A stretch of DNA of 64,000 bases from Massilimicrobiota sp. An134 (GTDB lineage: Bacteria; Bacillota_I; Bacilli_A; Erysipelotrichales; Coprobacillaceae): the NCBI RefSeq assembly GCF_002160815.1, contig NZ_NFLH01000007.1, positions 1 through 64,000 on the forward strand, given 5' to 3'. The position numbers and the translations under genes were made by a program. The notes beneath the pieces are model-generated. The model saw only the letters and a list, made by a program, of their open reading frames with translations, was not told where the DNA came from and ran no database searches. This document shows positions 5,724 to 60,345 of this stretch, one piece after another; within the stretch, counting starts at the first letter, position 1; each line of letters opens with the position of its first letter.

Positions 5724-6653
5724 TTATAAAATTTGATAAATAAAAACAATGATCGGCATTGTGATAATACAAAAAATAACAGACATAACATTCATGATAC
5801 TCGTATAACCTGGATGTTTATCATATAACTGGGCAAATTGGGTAATTGTTGCAGCAGCAGGAGCACTTGCAGCCAAAAGACTGATCAACAATATCTGATA
5901 AGCATCCTGATGAAAATTTTGTAATCCCAGCAAACGAAACGCCAAAATCACAGCCAAAGGATAAACAATCAATCTCAAAAAACAAATACCGTAAACCCTT
6001 TTTTCTTTAAAAACAGATAAAATATCAATATCGCCTAATAACATTCCAATCACCAGCATACTTAATGGCCCTACCATAGAACCAACACTACTTACTGTAT
6101 CATGAATCAGTGCTGGAAAATGCCAGCGTGCTATAAACATAATCATTCCTAACATAATCGCTATAACATTCACATTCAAGATAATCTTTTTGAAATCATA
6201 CTGCTTTTCATTACAAACCAGATTTTTCCCATGTGTCCATATTAAAATAGTTTGAACAACCATATATCCACTTGTATATAAAACCCATTCTTCCCCTAAA
6301 ATAGAAGCTACCAAAGGTATAATCAGATTACCAGCATTAGAATAAATAAGCGTTGCTTTTTCTACAGGCATAAAATGAAAGATCTGTCCCAATAATTTTG
6401 TTAATGGAATGAAAATCAAATGAACGACAATGGCCCCAATAAAAGATAAAATCAATCCCATCAGCTTCTCATTTGTAAAATCAATCTGAAAAGAATTTAA
6501 AATTGTACAAGGACAAACAATATATAAAACAATTTTAGAAATCACTTTGCTATCATCAGATGTCAGTACACGACACTTTACAGTTAAATATCCTACAAAA
6601 ATAATAAGAAATAATCCAAAAATATTTTGAGCTAATAAAAGACTTAATTCCAT
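5724..6653 (-). CDS. AEC (auxin efflux carrier) family transporter
   Basis: An integral membrane protein of 309 residues with about ten hydrophobic segments. The family in bacteria exports or imports small carboxylates such as malate or lactate, or amino acids. Diagnostic segments are the N-terminal GLFLIIFVGYLTVK, the SNAGNLIIPLVAS loop in the first half and a C-terminal SAPAAATITQFAQLYD, the last close to the conserved family helix. The start at 6653 has GGAGAGG upstream. It is divergent from the lactate dehydrogenase gene, so transport of a 2-hydroxy acid is a reasonable guess but unproven. Confidence 0.85.
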   Translation of the reverse strand: MELSLLLAQNIFGLFLIIFVGYLTVKCRVLTSDDSKVISKIVLYIVCPCTILNSFQIDFTNEKLMGLILSFIGAIVVHLIFIPLTKLLGQIFHFMPVEKATLIYSNAGNLIIPLVASILGEEWVLYTSGYMVVQTILIWTHGKNLVCNEKQYDFKKIILNVNVIAIMLGMIMFIARWHFPALIHDTVSSVGSMVGPLSMLVIGMLLGDIDILSVFKEKRVYGICFLRLIVYPLAVILAFRLLGLQNFHQDAYQILLISLLAASAPAAATITQFAQLYDKHPGYTSIMNVMSVIFCIITMPIIVFIYQIL

Positions 6654-13289: not shown

Positions 13290-13520
13290 ATATAAAAAGC
13301 CGTCCTTCTAAGGACGACTTGATCGCGATACCACCTTAGTTCATATATGACATCCATATATGCTCTCAAAACTTTAACGCAGTTAACGACAAAGACTACT
13401 CTTTTCATCTTTGTATCTCCAAGGCGAGTTCATTGTCTAACCTGTCTATTTCCACCACCCATAGACTCTCTAAAAAGTATCAACAACTACTACTCCTTTT
13501 CATCGATTCTAAACACAAGA
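13290..13520 (-). ncRNA. T-box leader of leuS (tRNA-Leu sensing)
   Basis: Reading the minus strand, a Stem I apical region with GGGTGGTGGAAA, a CTC triplet (13426-13428) in the specifier position after GAA, and the T-box core AAGGTGGTATCGCG (13324-13337) appear in the correct order. A terminator stem (GTCGTCCTT with AAGGACGGC) followed by T precedes the leuS start. The CTC specifier matches Leu, agreeing with the gene controlled. Confidence 0.92.
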
Positions 13521-17731: not shown

Positions 17732-18574
17732 CTATTCAAGGAGTTTCTTGATTTCTTCCATATGTTCTAAAGCTAATTGATAGCCATATTGATAAATACG
17801 ATCAATCTTCTGTAAATCTTTTTCAAAAGAATCAATTTGAAGTTCTTCACTTGGTCTTAAAATAATCGCCTGTCCCTGTTGTTCTAACTGTTCACAATAA
17901 GCCAATGTTTCATTATATAAAAGATGTCTTGTTAATAAGGGTTGTACTAATTGAGGATATTTTTTCTTTAATAAACGACTCGCAACAACATTAGCCTTTG
18001 ATAGTGTTTTTTGATATCCTTTAGGTCGCGTTAGGACAATCAATAGTTTCTGATGTCCATCCTCCATAGCTTTTTTAACTGGAATAGGATCACAGATTCC
18101 TCCATCATAATATTTCTTACCATTTAAAGAAATAACTGGAAAAGCAAAAGGAATGGCACAAGTTGCTTTCAACATTGTACATTTTTCATCTAATTGTTTT
18201 CCATCCAAATATTCACATTGACCTGTTTCCACATTGGTCACACCAACTTTCACTTGAGCTGGATTATTTAAAAATGTATCCCAATCAAAAGGATAGATTT
18301 CGTTAGGAATCGTTTCATAAGCATACTTTAATCCAAATAAACTACGATCATGCAAATAGTTACGAAGTCCCACATATCTTTTATCATGACGATGATTCAT
18401 TAAAATATCATAATTACGTTTTGGCTGCTTAGATACATAAGAAAAACCATCTGTAATACCTGCTGATACTCCAATAACATAAGGAAAATCAACACCATGA
18501 TCATTCAATGCATCCATCACACCACTAGAAAAAATAGGACGAAAAGTTCCTCCTTCTAATACAAGAGCACCCAT
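17732..18574 (-). CDS. Patatin-like phospholipase (RssA/YjjU type)
   Basis: A 280-residue hydrolase with the patatin serine-aspartate dyad: nucleophile Ser in GVSAG near residue 38 and Asp in DGGICDPIPV near 155. The oxyanion-hole segment at the N-terminus reads LEGGTFRPIFSSGV. It would cleave acyl esters, perhaps phospholipids. The start codon overlaps the stop of the M42 peptidase gene (TAATG), so the two are coupled. Confidence 0.88.
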   Translation of the reverse strand: MGALVLEGGTFRPIFSSGVMDALNDHGVDFPYVIGVSAGITDGFSYVSKQPKRNYDILMNHRHDKRYVGLRNYLHDRSLFGLKYAYETIPNEIYPFDWDTFLNNPAQVKVGVTNVETGQCEYLDGKQLDEKCTMLKATCAIPFAFPVISLNGKKYYDGGICDPIPVKKAMEDGHQKLLIVLTRPKGYQKTLSKANVVASRLLKKKYPQLVQPLLTRHLLYNETLAYCEQLEQQGQAIILRPSEELQIDSFEKDLQKIDRIYQYGYQLALEHMEEIKKLLE

Positions 18575-19632
18575 TAGCGTTTATCCTCTACCATAGACAT
18601 ATACATGTCTTCGTCAAATTCCTTTAAGAAAGCAACCAGCATATCAACAGTCGCTTCAAAATCATCAAGATGAATCATCGTATAATGAGAGTGCATATAA
18701 CGTGTCGGGATAGAAATAGTTAAATTCATGACACCCTGTCCCACTTTACTTAACTCTCCTGAATCTGTTCCACCTGCCAAATCCATATCAAGCTGATAAG
18801 CAATATGGTGATTTCGACAAATATTTTCTAATTGTTTTAATAAACCAGTATGACCAATCACACTGCCATCCATCACACATAATGCGACACCATTTCCCAA
18901 TCTGACATCGCCCTGTTCCCCGCCAGGAAGATCATACGAAAAAGTCACATCAATGGCTAAAGCCAAATCCGGTTGAACCATTTGTGCCACTGTTTTAGCA
19001 CCACGTAATCCCACTTCCTCCTGTACTGTTCCTGCTACATAAAGAGTGGGATAAATCTTTTCATGATGCAAACGTTTCATAACTTCTACCATGACTGCGA
19101 CTCCAATGCGATCATCCCATGCTTTGGAAAGCACACATTTTTCATTTTGCATCATAATAAAATCAGATACAGGCGTTACAGGATCACCTTTACCAATTCC
19201 CATATCTAAAACATCCTGTTTAGAAAAAGCCCCTACATCCAAATATAAGTCATCTACAGTAAGCACCTTTTCTTTAGGTGTCTGTTGTTTAAGAGCCATG
19301 ACACCTTTTATGTTTTGACCATCACGTGTTTCAATATTCATTAAAGATGATGGTAAATGACGTGGATTCCATCCTCCTACAGGCTGAACCTGTATAAATC
19401 CATGTTCATCTATATTCTTAACTAAAAATCCTATTTCATCAACATGAGCTGTTAATAAAACCTTAAATGGGCTCTCTCCATTTTGAATCGCTATTAAACT
19501 TCCTAACCCATCATATTGTATGTCATCTGCATATTCTTCTAAATATGTTTTCATTAATCTTGTTATATGTTTTTCATAGCCAGAAATACCATTGGCTAAA
19601 CTGAACTGTTTCAACATTTCTAAATCAGCCAT
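18574..19632 (-). CDS. M42 family aminopeptidase (glutamyl aminopeptidase/YsdC type)
   Basis: A cytoplasmic co-catalytic metallopeptidase of 352 residues. Metal ligands can be read as TAHVDEIGF (His), DDRIG (Asp), EEVGLRGA (catalytic Glu pair), AIDVTF (Asp) and, near the C-terminus, the final His in a SIPTRYMHS segment. The GGTDSG motif of the family is also present. Such enzymes form dodecameric shells that trim peptides. It is the first gene of a two-gene unit with the patatin. Confidence 0.92.
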   Translation of the reverse strand: MADLEMLKQFSLANGISGYEKHITRLMKTYLEEYADDIQYDGLGSLIAIQNGESPFKVLLTAHVDEIGFLVKNIDEHGFIQVQPVGGWNPRHLPSSLMNIETRDGQNIKGVMALKQQTPKEKVLTVDDLYLDVGAFSKQDVLDMGIGKGDPVTPVSDFIMMQNEKCVLSKAWDDRIGVAVMVEVMKRLHHEKIYPTLYVAGTVQEEVGLRGAKTVAQMVQPDLALAIDVTFSYDLPGGEQGDVRLGNGVALCVMDGSVIGHTGLLKQLENICRNHHIAYQLDMDLAGGTDSGELSKVGQGVMNLTISIPTRYMHSHYTMIHLDDFEATVDMLVAFLKEFDEDMYMSMVEDKR

Positions 19633-20329: not shown

Positions 20330-20860
20330 TTATTTTTTCTTTGGTGCTAATATAGCAGTTAATGTTCGCCCCTCTAATTTGGCAGGTTTTTCAATCACAC
20401 AATAATCTGCACATTCAGCGACGAAATCATCTAGTATTTTTTGACCAATATCAATATGAGCGAGCTGTCTACCTCTAAAGCGAACCGCAATTTTAACTTT
20501 ATCACCAGCTTCTAGCCATTTCAATGTTCTTTTTAATTTGACATTTTTGTCATGAACATCAATCGTTGGTGATAATTGCGTTTCTTTTAAAGAAACAGTT
20601 TTAGAATTCTTCTTCATTTCTTTTTGTTTCTTTTGTTGTTCAAAACGATATTTTCCATAATCCATAATACGACATACTGGTGTTTTGGCTTTTGGTGCAA
20701 CACACACTAAGTCTAAATCTTCATCATATGCTGTGTTAATAGCCTGATTACGTGACATGACACCTAACTGGTCCCCATTTTGATCAATCACTAGAACTTC
20801 TTTGAAACGAATCTTTTCATTCACTAAATCGTCATTTGATTGATTGTTATACTTGCTAAT
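20330..20860 (-). CDS. infC: Translation initiation factor IF-3, probably starting at AUU
   Basis: IF-3 keeps the 30S subunit free and checks the start codon. The sequence matches from NEKIRFKEV through MDYGKYRFEQQKK to the C-terminal domain ending in LAPKKK. The first in-frame GTG (20867-20869) lies inside the ribosome binding sequence AGGAGGTG, so it cannot be the start. Two ATT codons follow, at 20861-20863 and 20858-20860. Spacing favours the second, and AUU is the known, IF-3-sensitive start of infC in several bacteria. I therefore place the start at 20860 (20863 is possible), about 176 residues. Confidence 0.95.
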   Translation of the reverse strand: MSKYNNQSNDDLVNEKIRFKEVLVIDQNGDQLGVMSRNQAINTAYDEDLDLVCVAPKAKTPVCRIMDYGKYRFEQQKKQKEMKKNSKTVSLKETQLSPTIDVHDKNVKLKRTLKWLEAGDKVKIAVRFRGRQLAHIDIGQKILDDFVAECADYCVIEKPAKLEGRTLTAILAPKKK

Positions 20861-20874
20861 AATAGCCACCTCCT

Positions 20875-21020
20875 ATAAATTGTGTAGTTTAAACAAAAAG
20901 TGAGCACATAAAGCACCCACACATTGACATTAAGATATTCATCTTAGTGACATAAGCCTAGCATCATAAACACTCAGGCGAGAAGTAGGCACTTCTTCTT
21001 TCCACTACTTTTCATTTACT
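20875..21020 (-). ncRNA. L20-type autoregulatory leader of infC-rpmI-rplT
   Basis: About 145 transcribed bases precede infC. On the minus strand a compact hairpin (AGAAGTGCCTACTTCT region) is followed by a late stem GTGGGTGC/GTGCTCAC (wobble pairs) and TTTTTG, an intrinsic terminator just before the binding site. Position and order fit the leader through which L20 causes premature termination in Bacillus. The detailed L20-binding fold was not checked. Confidence 0.65.
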
Positions 21021-23042: not shown

Positions 23043-23070
23043 CAAAAAAAGAGTAGACTATTCTACTCTA
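23043..23070 (-). terminator. Terminator of the P-type ATPase homologue
   Basis: AGAGTAG/CTACTCT (23050-23056, 23063-23069) with a 6-base loop, then seven T on the minus strand. The stem overlaps the stop codon. Confidence 0.8.
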
Positions 23071-25020
23071 TAAAATACATGTTGAATTTCTCATTACAAA
23101 AGCTTTTAATAAAATTTCAATCAAGACAATAATCCATAAAGGAATAGCTGTCCAGCTTAATGCGACAATTAACATTGCTATCTTAACAACAACAGTTAAA
23201 ATATTATTCATAACAGCAATTGTACGCATATGACGTGCAATAACAAAAGTTTCATAAACTCTATTTAAATTGGCATCAATCAATACAATATCACTATTTT
23301 CTACAACTTTTGGATCAGCAAGTCCACCACGAGAAATACCGACATAACTTTTCTGTAAAAGTTCAATATCCTTAAAAGTATCACCAATATATACAACTGG
23401 TCCCGTTAAAGAATCCATTTTTTCCATTTTTTCTTCATTTGTCAGATTGTTATAAATCATATATTGATCATCTTCTAATGCCACTGGACCATCATTATAA
23501 ATAACTAATGTTCTTCCCATATGAGATAGCTTTTTAAACAGATTTAATTCCTCATTTGTGACCTCTACCCCATCAAAACGGTCATAAACAATAGTCTGAG
23601 CTGCATTCACTGAATCTAGCCCCATTGATGATTCAACAATAATTCCATTTTGAAATGCTTTCGCAAATCCTGCCAACATCCCTAAAGATGTTGCCTGATC
23701 ACTTGATAAAGCACCAGATATAACAAGGAAAATGGCTCCAACATGAATATATGCTCCATAATCTTCAAAATTAACAAGTGGTAAAACAATACCTAAAAGA
23801 AGTCCTAGAATAGTCATAACAGGTGTATAAAATTGTGCTAAACGTTTTGTATATTTTTCTACTTTTGATTCATAGACTGGTGCTACACTGGCAATATTCA
23901 TTAAATTCATGTAGTTAGAACTTTCATAAGTTTCATCAACCTGCACATAAATAGGCATATCACCAACATTGACATCACCACTACGTACATGACTTCCTTC
24001 TTTCACAACAACAGGTTCATAGGTACTGGTATTAGAATAAGTGCTCATTGCTGAAACACCTTTATGAATAGTCCCTGGAATAGAAACAGTTTCTCCTGGT
24101 TTAACCACCAGAATATCCCCAATTTCTACATCATATAAAGAAACCTTTTCTTCTGTATCATCTTTCCATTTGATTCCTGTTTCAGGCATTTCTACAGCAT
24201 TATCAATTTTATGTAAAGAGCGTTCTAAAACTTTATTTAAAAATGGTGTCGACAGTTCATAAAAAATCAAAGCAAAACATGTTTCAATGTAAGCTCCTGA
24301 AACAATTCCAAAAAACATCGCTATAAATATGATAAGAGATTCACTCAAAAACTTCTTAGATAAAATATCTCCCCAAGCTTTTTTTAATAAAGGTGTCCCT
24401 AATAAAATCACTGTCACCAACCATAAAACAGGTGTCATCCATGTATGATCTTTAGATGTTACCAAAGCCAATGCAATTACAACCAATAATATTCCCACAC
24501 GAATATATGTATGTAAATATTTTTCATTAAAGACATCCTGTGAACGAATAGGACGATGATGTTCAATGATTTCCACAGAAGGATTGATTTTAAACAATTC
24601 TTTTCTTAATAAACTTAAAACATCACGTTGATTAGATGTCAGTAATAACAGCTTGTTTTGTGCATCATAACGTACATTTTGATATCTATGATCTTTTTCT
24701 ATTCTTTCAACCAAAACATAAATATCATCTTCTGTAATCATATTTTTAAACATGAAATAATATTGACGATCTTTCTTTTTCGCAAAATCATATTCACGTT
24801 TTTTACCATCAATGACCTCTTTGACAACCAGATCTTTATTTATACTTTGAATAAGACTTAATAAAGCATCAATATCAAGACAATGAAAAACAATACTATC
24901 TTTATTAACCTTAATATGCGAAACTTGTTCTTTTTCATTTAATTTCAAACTCAAATGATTCAATTCTTCAACCGATTGAATATGAGAGATTTCAAAAGTC
25001 TTTTTTGTCAATACAATCAC
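23068..25020 (-). CDS. Degenerate P1B-type ATPase (predicted pseudo-enzyme)
   Basis: The 650 residues have the layout of a heavy-metal ATPase: about 170 N-terminal residues that look like two ferredoxin-fold domains without CxxC, paired membrane helices near 172-210 and 220-265, an actuator-like domain, a helix pair near 395-450, a soluble part and a last pair near 605-640. The catalytic motifs are changed. TGES is TSTY (331-334). The membrane CPC is SGA (435-437). DKTGT is DRFDG (480-484), with the Asp kept. GDGxND is GDTFKD (546-551). Only 65 residues separate the last two, where a nucleotide-binding domain of some 100-200 residues normally sits. ATP-driven transport is therefore unlikely. 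The frame is intact, so it is under selection as a protein, perhaps as a sensor, chaperone or subunit. Confidence 0.85.
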   Translation of the reverse strand: MIVLTKKTFEISHIQSVEELNHLSLKLNEKEQVSHIKVNKDSIVFHCLDIDALLSLIQSINKDLVVKEVIDGKKREYDFAKKKDRQYYFMFKNMITEDDIYVLVERIEKDHRYQNVRYDAQNKLLLLTSNQRDVLSLLRKELFKINPSVEIIEHHRPIRSQDVFNEKYLHTYIRVGILLVVIALALVTSKDHTWMTPVLWLVTVILLGTPLLKKAWGDILSKKFLSESLIIFIAMFFGIVSGAYIETCFALIFYELSTPFLNKVLERSLHKIDNAVEMPETGIKWKDDTEEKVSLYDVEIGDILVVKPGETVSIPGTIHKGVSAMSTYSNTSTYEPVVVKEGSHVRSGDVNVGDMPIYVQVDETYESSNYMNLMNIASVAPVYESKVEKYTKRLAQFYTPVMTILGLLLGIVLPLVNFEDYGAYIHVGAIFLVISGALSSDQATSLGMLAGFAKAFQNGIIVESSMGLDSVNAAQTIVYDRFDGVEVTNEELNLFKKLSHMGRTLVIYNDGPVALEDDQYMIYNNLTNEEKMEKMDSLTGPVVYIGDTFKDIELLQKSYVGISRGGLADPKVVENSDIVLIDANLNRVYETFVIARHMRTIAVMNNILTVVVKIAMLIVALSWTAIPLWIIVLIEILLKAFVMRNSTCIL

Positions 25021-25067
25021 CCTTTCTACGACATCATAACATATTTTTTATAAAAAACAAAGAAACA

Positions 25068-25310
25068 TCATGATTTCTCATAAGATTGAGCATGTTTTAC
25101 TAATTGAAAATACTCTTTAAATTCAGCTTCACTGCAACTTAAAGAAAACTCTTCTCCATAAATTTTATAAAAAGAAACTTCCATGTCACCTGTACGAATC
25201 ATACATAAATAAACTTGACCTTTTTTAAAAATAATCAGTTCTTCTTTACCAATTTGCATACGCATGTCCTGAACACAGCGACAATAACAGCGTTTTCCTT
25301 CATTAGCCAC
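25068..25310 (-). CDS. Small Cys-containing hypothetical protein
   Basis: Not recognised. The 80 residues carry a CYCRC cluster near the N-terminus, two further Cys (YLC, LSC) and a mix of beta strands and a C-terminal helix. The start is placed at the GTG at 25310: the earlier GTG (25319) overlaps the binding sequence AAGGAGGTG, whereas the later one has 8 bases of spacing. It lies 47 bases upstream of the degenerate P-type ATPase gene, separated from it only by a weak hairpin, so the two may be co-expressed. The CxC pattern makes metal binding possible. Confidence 0.65.
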   Translation of the reverse strand: MANEGKRCYCRCVQDMRMQIGKEELIIFKKGQVYLCMIRTGDMEVSFYKIYGEEFSLSCSEAEFKEYFQLVKHAQSYEKS

Positions 25311-25363: not shown

Positions 25364-25390
25364 AAATGATACCCATGTGAGTATCATTTA
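25364..25390 (-). terminator. Terminator of prfC
   Basis: AAATGATAC (25364-25372) pairs with GTATCATTT (25381-25389), which includes the prfC stop codon; the minus strand continues TTTTCTTTTTT. Confidence 0.85.
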
Positions 25391-45861: not shown

Positions 45862-46085
45862 AAAAAAAGCCGTTCCTAAAAGGAACGACTATAATATCGC
45901 GGTACCATCCTCATTCATATTCATCATGAATATGCTCTCTTACCATAACGCTGTTTAGCGGGATAGTCTACTTACATTTCTCCTATCCGGTTCATTGAGT
46001 GTTCCATATTATAACAGTTTCTTTTGCTTACACCATCCAAAAGTCGCTATCAAACTTCACTATAATACGTTCTCAAATCATTACC
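45862..46085 (-). ncRNA. T-box leader of asnS (tRNA-Asn sensing)
   Basis: Reading the minus strand, an apical Stem I hairpin (TTTTGGATGGTGTAAGCAAAA), a Stem I 3' strand, an AAC triplet (46001-46003) in the specifier position and the T-box core AGGATGGTACCGCG (45899-45912) occur in order. A terminator stem CGTTCCT/AGGAACG with seven T lies before the asnS start. AAC codes for Asn, agreeing with the gene. Confidence 0.88.
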
Positions 46086-46128
46086 TGTACATCTATTATT
46101 AACATCTTTCTCACAAAATTTCAATACT

Positions 46129-52403: not shown

Positions 52404-52535
52404 TAAAAAAGACTTTTCTACCCACGTAAAAAAGTCACAAAAATCATTATTTGCACTCTCTACGCTGGCATTACCCAGTTCAGATCATAAGGGACAAGGT
52501 GAAAACCTTTCTCAGCAAATGCGCCCCTGGCTCAT
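52404..52535 (-). ncRNA. TPP riboswitch controlling thiT
   Basis: The minus strand shows the thi box: GAGCCAGGGGCGC, CTGAGA, CCCTTATGATCTG and AACTGGGTAATGCCAGCG, in order (aptamer 52453-52535). A terminator stem GACTTTT/AAAAGTC with seven T (52404-52436) follows. Thiamine pyrophosphate should stop transcription. Confidence 0.97.
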
Positions 52536-52539
52536 ATCT

Positions 52540-60152: not shown

Positions 60153-60179
60153 AATATCTATTATTGATGAAGTTACAAA

Positions 60180-60345
60180 AGAAAAGCGCCAGGACTTTAT
60201 ACATATAAAGTTGACGAGGACCAGATTTATCGAAAGATTCGGCGGATGATCTGGAGGTATGATGCTACCTGAACAATGAGCAAAACTAATGAGTGATCAT
60301 TAAACAAATATCATTAGGCATCACTTCATTCAATAATAAAAAATG
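60180..60345 (+). ncRNA. glmS ribozyme (GlcN6P-sensing, self-cleaving)
   Basis: The conserved core is present: AGCGCCAGGACTT, AAGTTGACGAGGA, TTTATCGA, GATTCGGCGGATGA, then a helical 3' part up to about 60345. Cleavage is expected between A60185 and G60186. Glucosamine-6-phosphate triggers cleavage and mRNA decay, so GlmS is feedback-controlled. Confidence 0.97.

Follow-up and report, generated by a model that had tools for sequence, protein, structure and literature searches.

Pseudoenzymes are known among kinases, proteases and other enzymes. The described proteins nearest to the one reported here are the P1B-2 ATPases (ZntA/CadA, exporters of Zn2+ and Cd2+), with which it shares ancestry, fold, the membrane-A-P domain order, N-terminal HMA-type folds and the Asp, Lys and acidic pair of the P domain. 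It differs from them as a pseudo-pump without N domain, TGES, CPC, DKTGT, TGD, GDGxND or CxxC, and the pattern of selection acting on it is inverted. Two pseudoenzymes offer a precedent: the accessible part of PMC3149277 describes iRhom pseudoproteases as keeping a conserved enzyme fold for a regulatory job after catalysis was lost, and that of PMC3663545 describes a dead deoxyhypusine synthase paralogue whose fold is likewise retained for regulation. In contrast to both, the ancestor here is a P-type ATPase, the phosphate-handling core is partly retained and the role is predicted. CheY-like response regulator receiver domains resemble the P domain by analogy only (acceptor Asp, Mg2+-binding acids and Lys in a Rossmann-like domain), whereas the pseudo-pump P domain descends from a P-type ATPase. 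A further parallel is the mycobacterial zinc P1B-ATPase CtpC and PacL1, a small protein with a metal-binding motif that is needed together with the P1B protein (PMC9374683, accessible part). However, CtpC is an active pump, and PacL1 has a transmembrane domain, whereas the four-cysteine protein described below, a candidate partner, is a predicted soluble small beta-barrel.

No description of an inactive, pseudo or truncated P-type ATPase family of this kind was found in the open-access literature searched, nor did searches on the host group bring one up, and none appears in the accessible part of a 2023 review of open P-type questions. A stable, selected P-type ATPase family lacking the ATP domain, of which we found no earlier description in that literature, would reveal which other tasks a P-type fold can perform once pumping is lost, and would be a case in which nature has uncoupled the phosphorylation domain from ATP.

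The gene was analysed within a window of 64,000 nucleotides, the whole stretch considered (Massilimicrobiota sp. An134, contig NZ_NFLH01000007.1). It runs from 25011 to 23068 on the minus strand and encodes 647 residues plus a stop. A previous sequence-only reading had described an intact frame with its own terminator; the ORF at 23068-25020 (minus strand) is indeed open, and an intrinsic terminator was found at 23069-23050, right after it. That reading placed a GTG start at 25020, but TTG at 25011 is probably the start, yielding the 647-residue product, because a conserved ribosome-binding site (GAAAGGGTGA) followed by TTG is common to the near relatives. Within some 40 bases ahead of the start codon, 25 of 26 relatives, and the window too, have an extended -10 element, TGNTANNNT. 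The small gene and the pseudo-ATPase gene are together flanked by two terminators.

Positions 23050..23069, minus strand: intrinsic terminator after the pseudo-ATPase gene (8-bp stem, T run).
Positions 23068..25011, minus strand: pseudo-P1B-ATPase gene, with proposed TTG start.
Positions 25017..25026, minus strand: ribosome-binding site GAAAGGGTGA, the same sequence in the nearest relatives.
Positions 25033..25041, minus strand: extended -10 promoter element TGTTATGAT, immediately ahead of the pseudo-ATPase gene.
Positions 25068..25310, minus strand: small companion protein of about 80 residues, proposed GTG start (MANEGKRCYCRC...), just upstream of the pseudo-pump.
Positions 25364..25389, minus strand: prfC (RF3) terminator, separating upstream prfC from the small gene and the pseudo-ATPase.

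Alignment with ZntA-like pumps of the same genomes places TSTY at the TGES site, DRFDG at the DKTGT site (with the Asp kept) and GDTFKD at the GDGxND site, all as previously claimed. The CPC site reads GAL rather than SGA, the earlier assignment being one residue off, and NDGP occupies the expected TGD position. The N domain, previously judged largely missing, is absent, since 65 residues stand between DRFDG and GDTFKD where true pumps of the same family have 179-188. The domains are arranged as follows.

Positions 24559..25011, minus strand: two N-terminal ferredoxin-like (HMA-like) domains without CxxC, residues 1-151 (predicted fold, profile match, alignment).
Positions 23602..24558, minus strand: membrane helices MA, MB and 1-4 with the A domain (TSTY, GAL), residues about 152-470 (model, alignment).
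Positions 23272..23601, minus strand: P domain lacking the N-domain insertion, residues 471-580, with YDRFDG, NDGP, K528, GDTFKD and SRGG (alignment, model).
Positions 23071..23271, minus strand: C-terminal membrane helices 5-6 (predicted model, alignment).

The same alterations recur throughout the family. DKTGT, TGES, CPC, TGD and GDGxND are each absent from all 27 aligned members, as are the N domain and the HP[IL] motif, while the replacements DR[FYI]D[GD] (YDR[FYI]D), [FY]NDGP and GDxxKD are present in 27/27. A search for orthologues had been suggested as a check on the altered motifs, and no close relative was found to carry the canonical ones; judged from the alignment, changes shared in kind by 27 of 27 relatives are far from chance. 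C..C occurs anywhere in just two of the 27, the HMA positions lack CxxC, and the helix-6 Lys/Asp of the P1B-2 metal site is not conserved in the family. The general HAD core is invariant, with D477, K528, D544 and D548 (acceptor Asp, Lys and GDxxxD pair) found in all 27. Hence the claim that nearly every catalytic motif is replaced stands for the pump-specific motifs but fails for the HAD core: the P-domain core is altered, not abolished, since the phosphorylatable Asp, the Lys and the acidic pair are all kept. With pump-specific motifs lost and the HAD core invariant, the chemistry peculiar to the pump is gone while a phosphate/Mg2+ pocket may persist.

The predicted model of the window protein (mean pLDDT 78.6, pTM 0.57) contains two ferredoxin-like N-terminal domains, the pump helices, all of which are predicted to remain, an A domain and a P domain. 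A structural comparison, likewise proposed beforehand, returned P1B pumps as the top matches: 7r0g (Z 25.9 over 448 residues, 7.4 Å), 7qbz (Z 21.2) and 4umw (Z 18.3). The conformational state of the model is poorly readable, as the large whole-chain rmsd reflects domain arrangement. The predicted P domain alone matches that of CopA with Z 17.8 and 2.6 Å over 138 residues. The N-terminal topology is predicted to be beta-alpha-beta-beta-alpha-beta, twice, which is the ferredoxin-like HMA topology; a profile of residues from this part of the protein finds, in a relative, a canonical pump at its HMA region (E 4e-6), and Pfam HMA gives weak matches in 4 of 13 members. The window protein scores 53 bits with Pfam E1-E2_ATPase (cut-off 28.1) and falls far below the NCBIfam pump models (134.9 bits versus a cut-off of 346.25). 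Pfam, structure matches and the tree described below agree on common ancestry and a common membrane/A-domain fold with P1B ATPases. Automatic pipelines may label these genes heavy-metal pumps, creating a risk of mis-annotation.

A family-wide profile detected the pseudo-pump as a single-copy gene in 32 of 43 genomes of the bacterial family, with 30-88% identity and no internal stops. Carriers are gut bacteria, comprise several isolates and MAGs, and include Massilimicrobiota, Longibaculum, Stoquefichus, Thomasclavelia and Faecalibacillus, among others. Wider searches, for which the whole protein, its N-terminal region and its P domain each supplied a profile, revealed no full-length members outside the bacterial family in about 390 genomes of the class and about as many of the phylum; an extra class-level match (G354) covers just residues 79-487 of a 677-aa frame. 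A plasmid origin was rejected, tblastn giving no match at 1e-60. Phage records gave only partial matches below 30% identity, which resemble ordinary pumps.

Shorter, more degraded relatives (L032, L033) occur in two more genera. These have also lost the HAD core residues of the P domain, and P-domain chemistry is therefore dispensable in at least those lineages. One degraded gene (in G005) adjoins prfC as in the window, and the other (in G006) adjoins the small four-cysteine protein. In a tree of 34 sequences, the 15 pseudo-pumps form one group (support 97), and together with L032 and L033 they constitute one long branch off the ZntA-like pumps (support 100), although the exact placement of L032 and L033 is unsure owing to a quick tree method and very long branches. 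The stem branch is long, at 1.57 changes per column. According to this tree, the family arose once from zinc/cadmium (P1B-2, ZntA-like) P1B ATPases. A recent fusion is ruled out by the architecture common to 32 genomes and by the single clade. Among the ZntA-like matches, two contain in-frame stops (G007:C1:470745-471734 and G023:C2:150412-151449) and are broken pumps or sequencing errors.

The locus is fixed: on one side of the pseudo-pump gene is prfC, or a gene that takes its place, and on the other a pseudouridine synthase that adjoins infC-rpmI-rplT. Each of the 25 named loci that extend far enough has the synthase downstream. The pseudo-pump gene is missing from eight related genomes, which belong to six sister genera. 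All seven of these with a single-contig locus have the same site without the pseudo-pump, and a 208-224 aa membrane protein is found there in six of the seven as well as in the split locus of the eighth. This replacing protein (L071-L076, L078), located between the prfC and glycerate kinase positions, is conserved and probably PAP2-like.

The small companion protein has four invariant cysteines (CxC, YxC, LSC) and is predicted to be a small beta-barrel. It is present in all 32 pseudo-pump genomes and two others, and absent from the eight sister genomes lacking the pseudo-pump. It is confined to this bacterial family, a further example being L082 at about 6021-6248 (minus strand), and in G013, where no pseudo-pump can be recognised in the vicinity, it stands next to a small P-loop gene. 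The protein has no match in Pfam or NCBIfam and constitutes an undescribed family; since its PDB matches are weak (SH3-like, E above 0.1), we claim no fold for it. Its co-occurrence with the pseudo-pump may reflect shared ancestry, not function. The pseudo-pump is followed in some Thomasclavelia by a gene of YbjQ type ('putative heavy-metal-binding'). Together with the four-cysteine protein, this gene weakly points to metals.

Pairwise dN/dS of the pseudo-pump (NG86, rough at dS near 1) is 0.05-0.14 over the full length and 0.03-0.12 for the P domain alone, which indicates strong purifying selection. Within the genus, dN/dS is 0.03-0.085 for the P domain, 0.05-0.13 for the N-terminal domains and 0.13-0.15 for the membrane/A region. 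The true ZntA-like pump of the same genomes displays the reverse order, with 0.04-0.07 for membrane/A and 0.06-0.10 for the P domain. Across four genomes of the genus, 72% of the membrane and A columns are invariant in the pseudo-pump versus 88% in the pump (Fisher p 8e-8), while the P-domain values of 86% and 83% are not different, and 25 of the 47 columns invariant across 27 sequences fall within the 110-residue P domain (p 3e-9); both p values are indicative, neighbouring columns not being independent. As read from these substitutions, selection on the pseudo-pump runs opposite to that on the true pump within this genus: constraint is strongest in the P domain, the N-terminal domains also belong to the most constrained parts, and membrane/A is relaxed. 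The 'selected pseudo-ATPase' of the sequence-only reading is thus strongly supported by motifs altered family-wide, a single origin, low dN/dS, a fixed locus and its own promoter. Neither outcome named beforehand as refuting it, canonical motifs in close relatives or a recent fusion or decay product lacking conservation, was observed. A regulatory role is favoured and a channel disfavoured, because the soluble domains are protected, whereas a transporter should protect its transport path. Of the roles suggested previously (sensor, partner or passive channel), the first two fit this pattern and the last does not.

We are highly confident that the protein is selected and is not an ATP-driven pump. 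It has lost the N domain and therefore the ATP site, the dephosphorylation loop with TGES, the metal site at CPC and, in the N-terminal metal domains, CxxC. What it keeps is the fold and, in the P domain, the acceptor Asp, the Lys and the acidic pair, around which new invariant residues have arisen. The reading we prefer, to which we give somewhat better than even chances, is that of a non-pumping, P1B-2-derived, membrane-anchored sensor or scaffold with a ligand-binding P domain. The exposed P domain would bind Mg2+ with phosphate, or a phosphorylated partner, independently of ATP. The old pump conformational change would relay the ligand state, the remaining A and membrane domains transmitting it or serving as anchor, and the adjacent four-cysteine protein would probably act together with the pseudo-pump.

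The retained HAD core would also suit a HAD phosphatase or phosphotransferase of the capless kind, anchored in the membrane by what is left of the pump and with its active site open to a macromolecular phospho-substrate. The invariant acceptor Asp, Lys and GDxxxD pair, the disappearance of the N domain that caps the site and the weak matches that a few members give with Pfam models of HAD hydrolases all speak for such an enzyme. Those matches, however, are at chance level (best E 0.022). The residue at D+2 is the acid/base Asp in HAD phosphatases, but it is Phe, Tyr or Ile in all 27 members, and we consider this alternative unlikely, if worth weighing. Rather improbable is a P domain working as an ATP-independent phospho-aspartate switch. 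Its phosphate would come from inorganic phosphate, a small-molecule phosphodonor or a partner kinase; the loss of TGES would keep the switch on, and it would be read out via the A and membrane domains and the cysteine-bearing small protein.

Alternatively, the pseudo-pump could join a true P1B pump of its own cell, ZntA, in mixed assemblies and act there as its regulatory or dominant partner subunit. Dead paralogues controlling live ones are an established kind, as in trypanosomatid deoxyhypusine synthase (PMC3663545, accessible part), and the carrier genomes examined also have matches in frames of full-pump length. Yet true pumps are present just as often in genomes without the pseudo-pump, no pump gene adjoins it in the loci inspected, and the membrane surfaces that would make the contact are the least constrained, making this proposal quite improbable. 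A passive channel or carrier for another solute, for which the predicted retention of all pump membrane helices could be cited, is very unlikely: these helices are the fastest-evolving part and almost devoid of invariant residues (just 3 of 256 columns in the tested helical blocks across 27 members), and the family alignment contains no conserved polar line substituting for CPC or the helix-6 Lys/Asp. Despite the long stem branch and the two relatives that degrade further, a decay product, frameshift or assembly artefact is hardly credible given frames open in 32 genomes, dN/dS far below 1, a conserved start, promoter and locus, and occurrence in several isolates and MAGs.

Some minor observations concern neighbouring genes. 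For infC (IF3; window 20330-20869, minus strand), the listed GTG start overlaps the Shine-Dalgarno AGGAGG, and an ATT a few bases on (AGGAGGTGGCTATTATTAGC) is the likelier start, matching the classical case of infC with an AUU start. An L20 leader lies just upstream of infC at 20886-21006. Three consecutive genes at L079 641-3889 (minus strand) are related to the peptidase-like ORF at 18574-19632 of the window, with 43-52% identity. Elsewhere, the window contains two T-box leaders, a TPP riboswitch and a glmS ribozyme (13307-13512, 45878-46090, 52439-52538 and 60174-60325).
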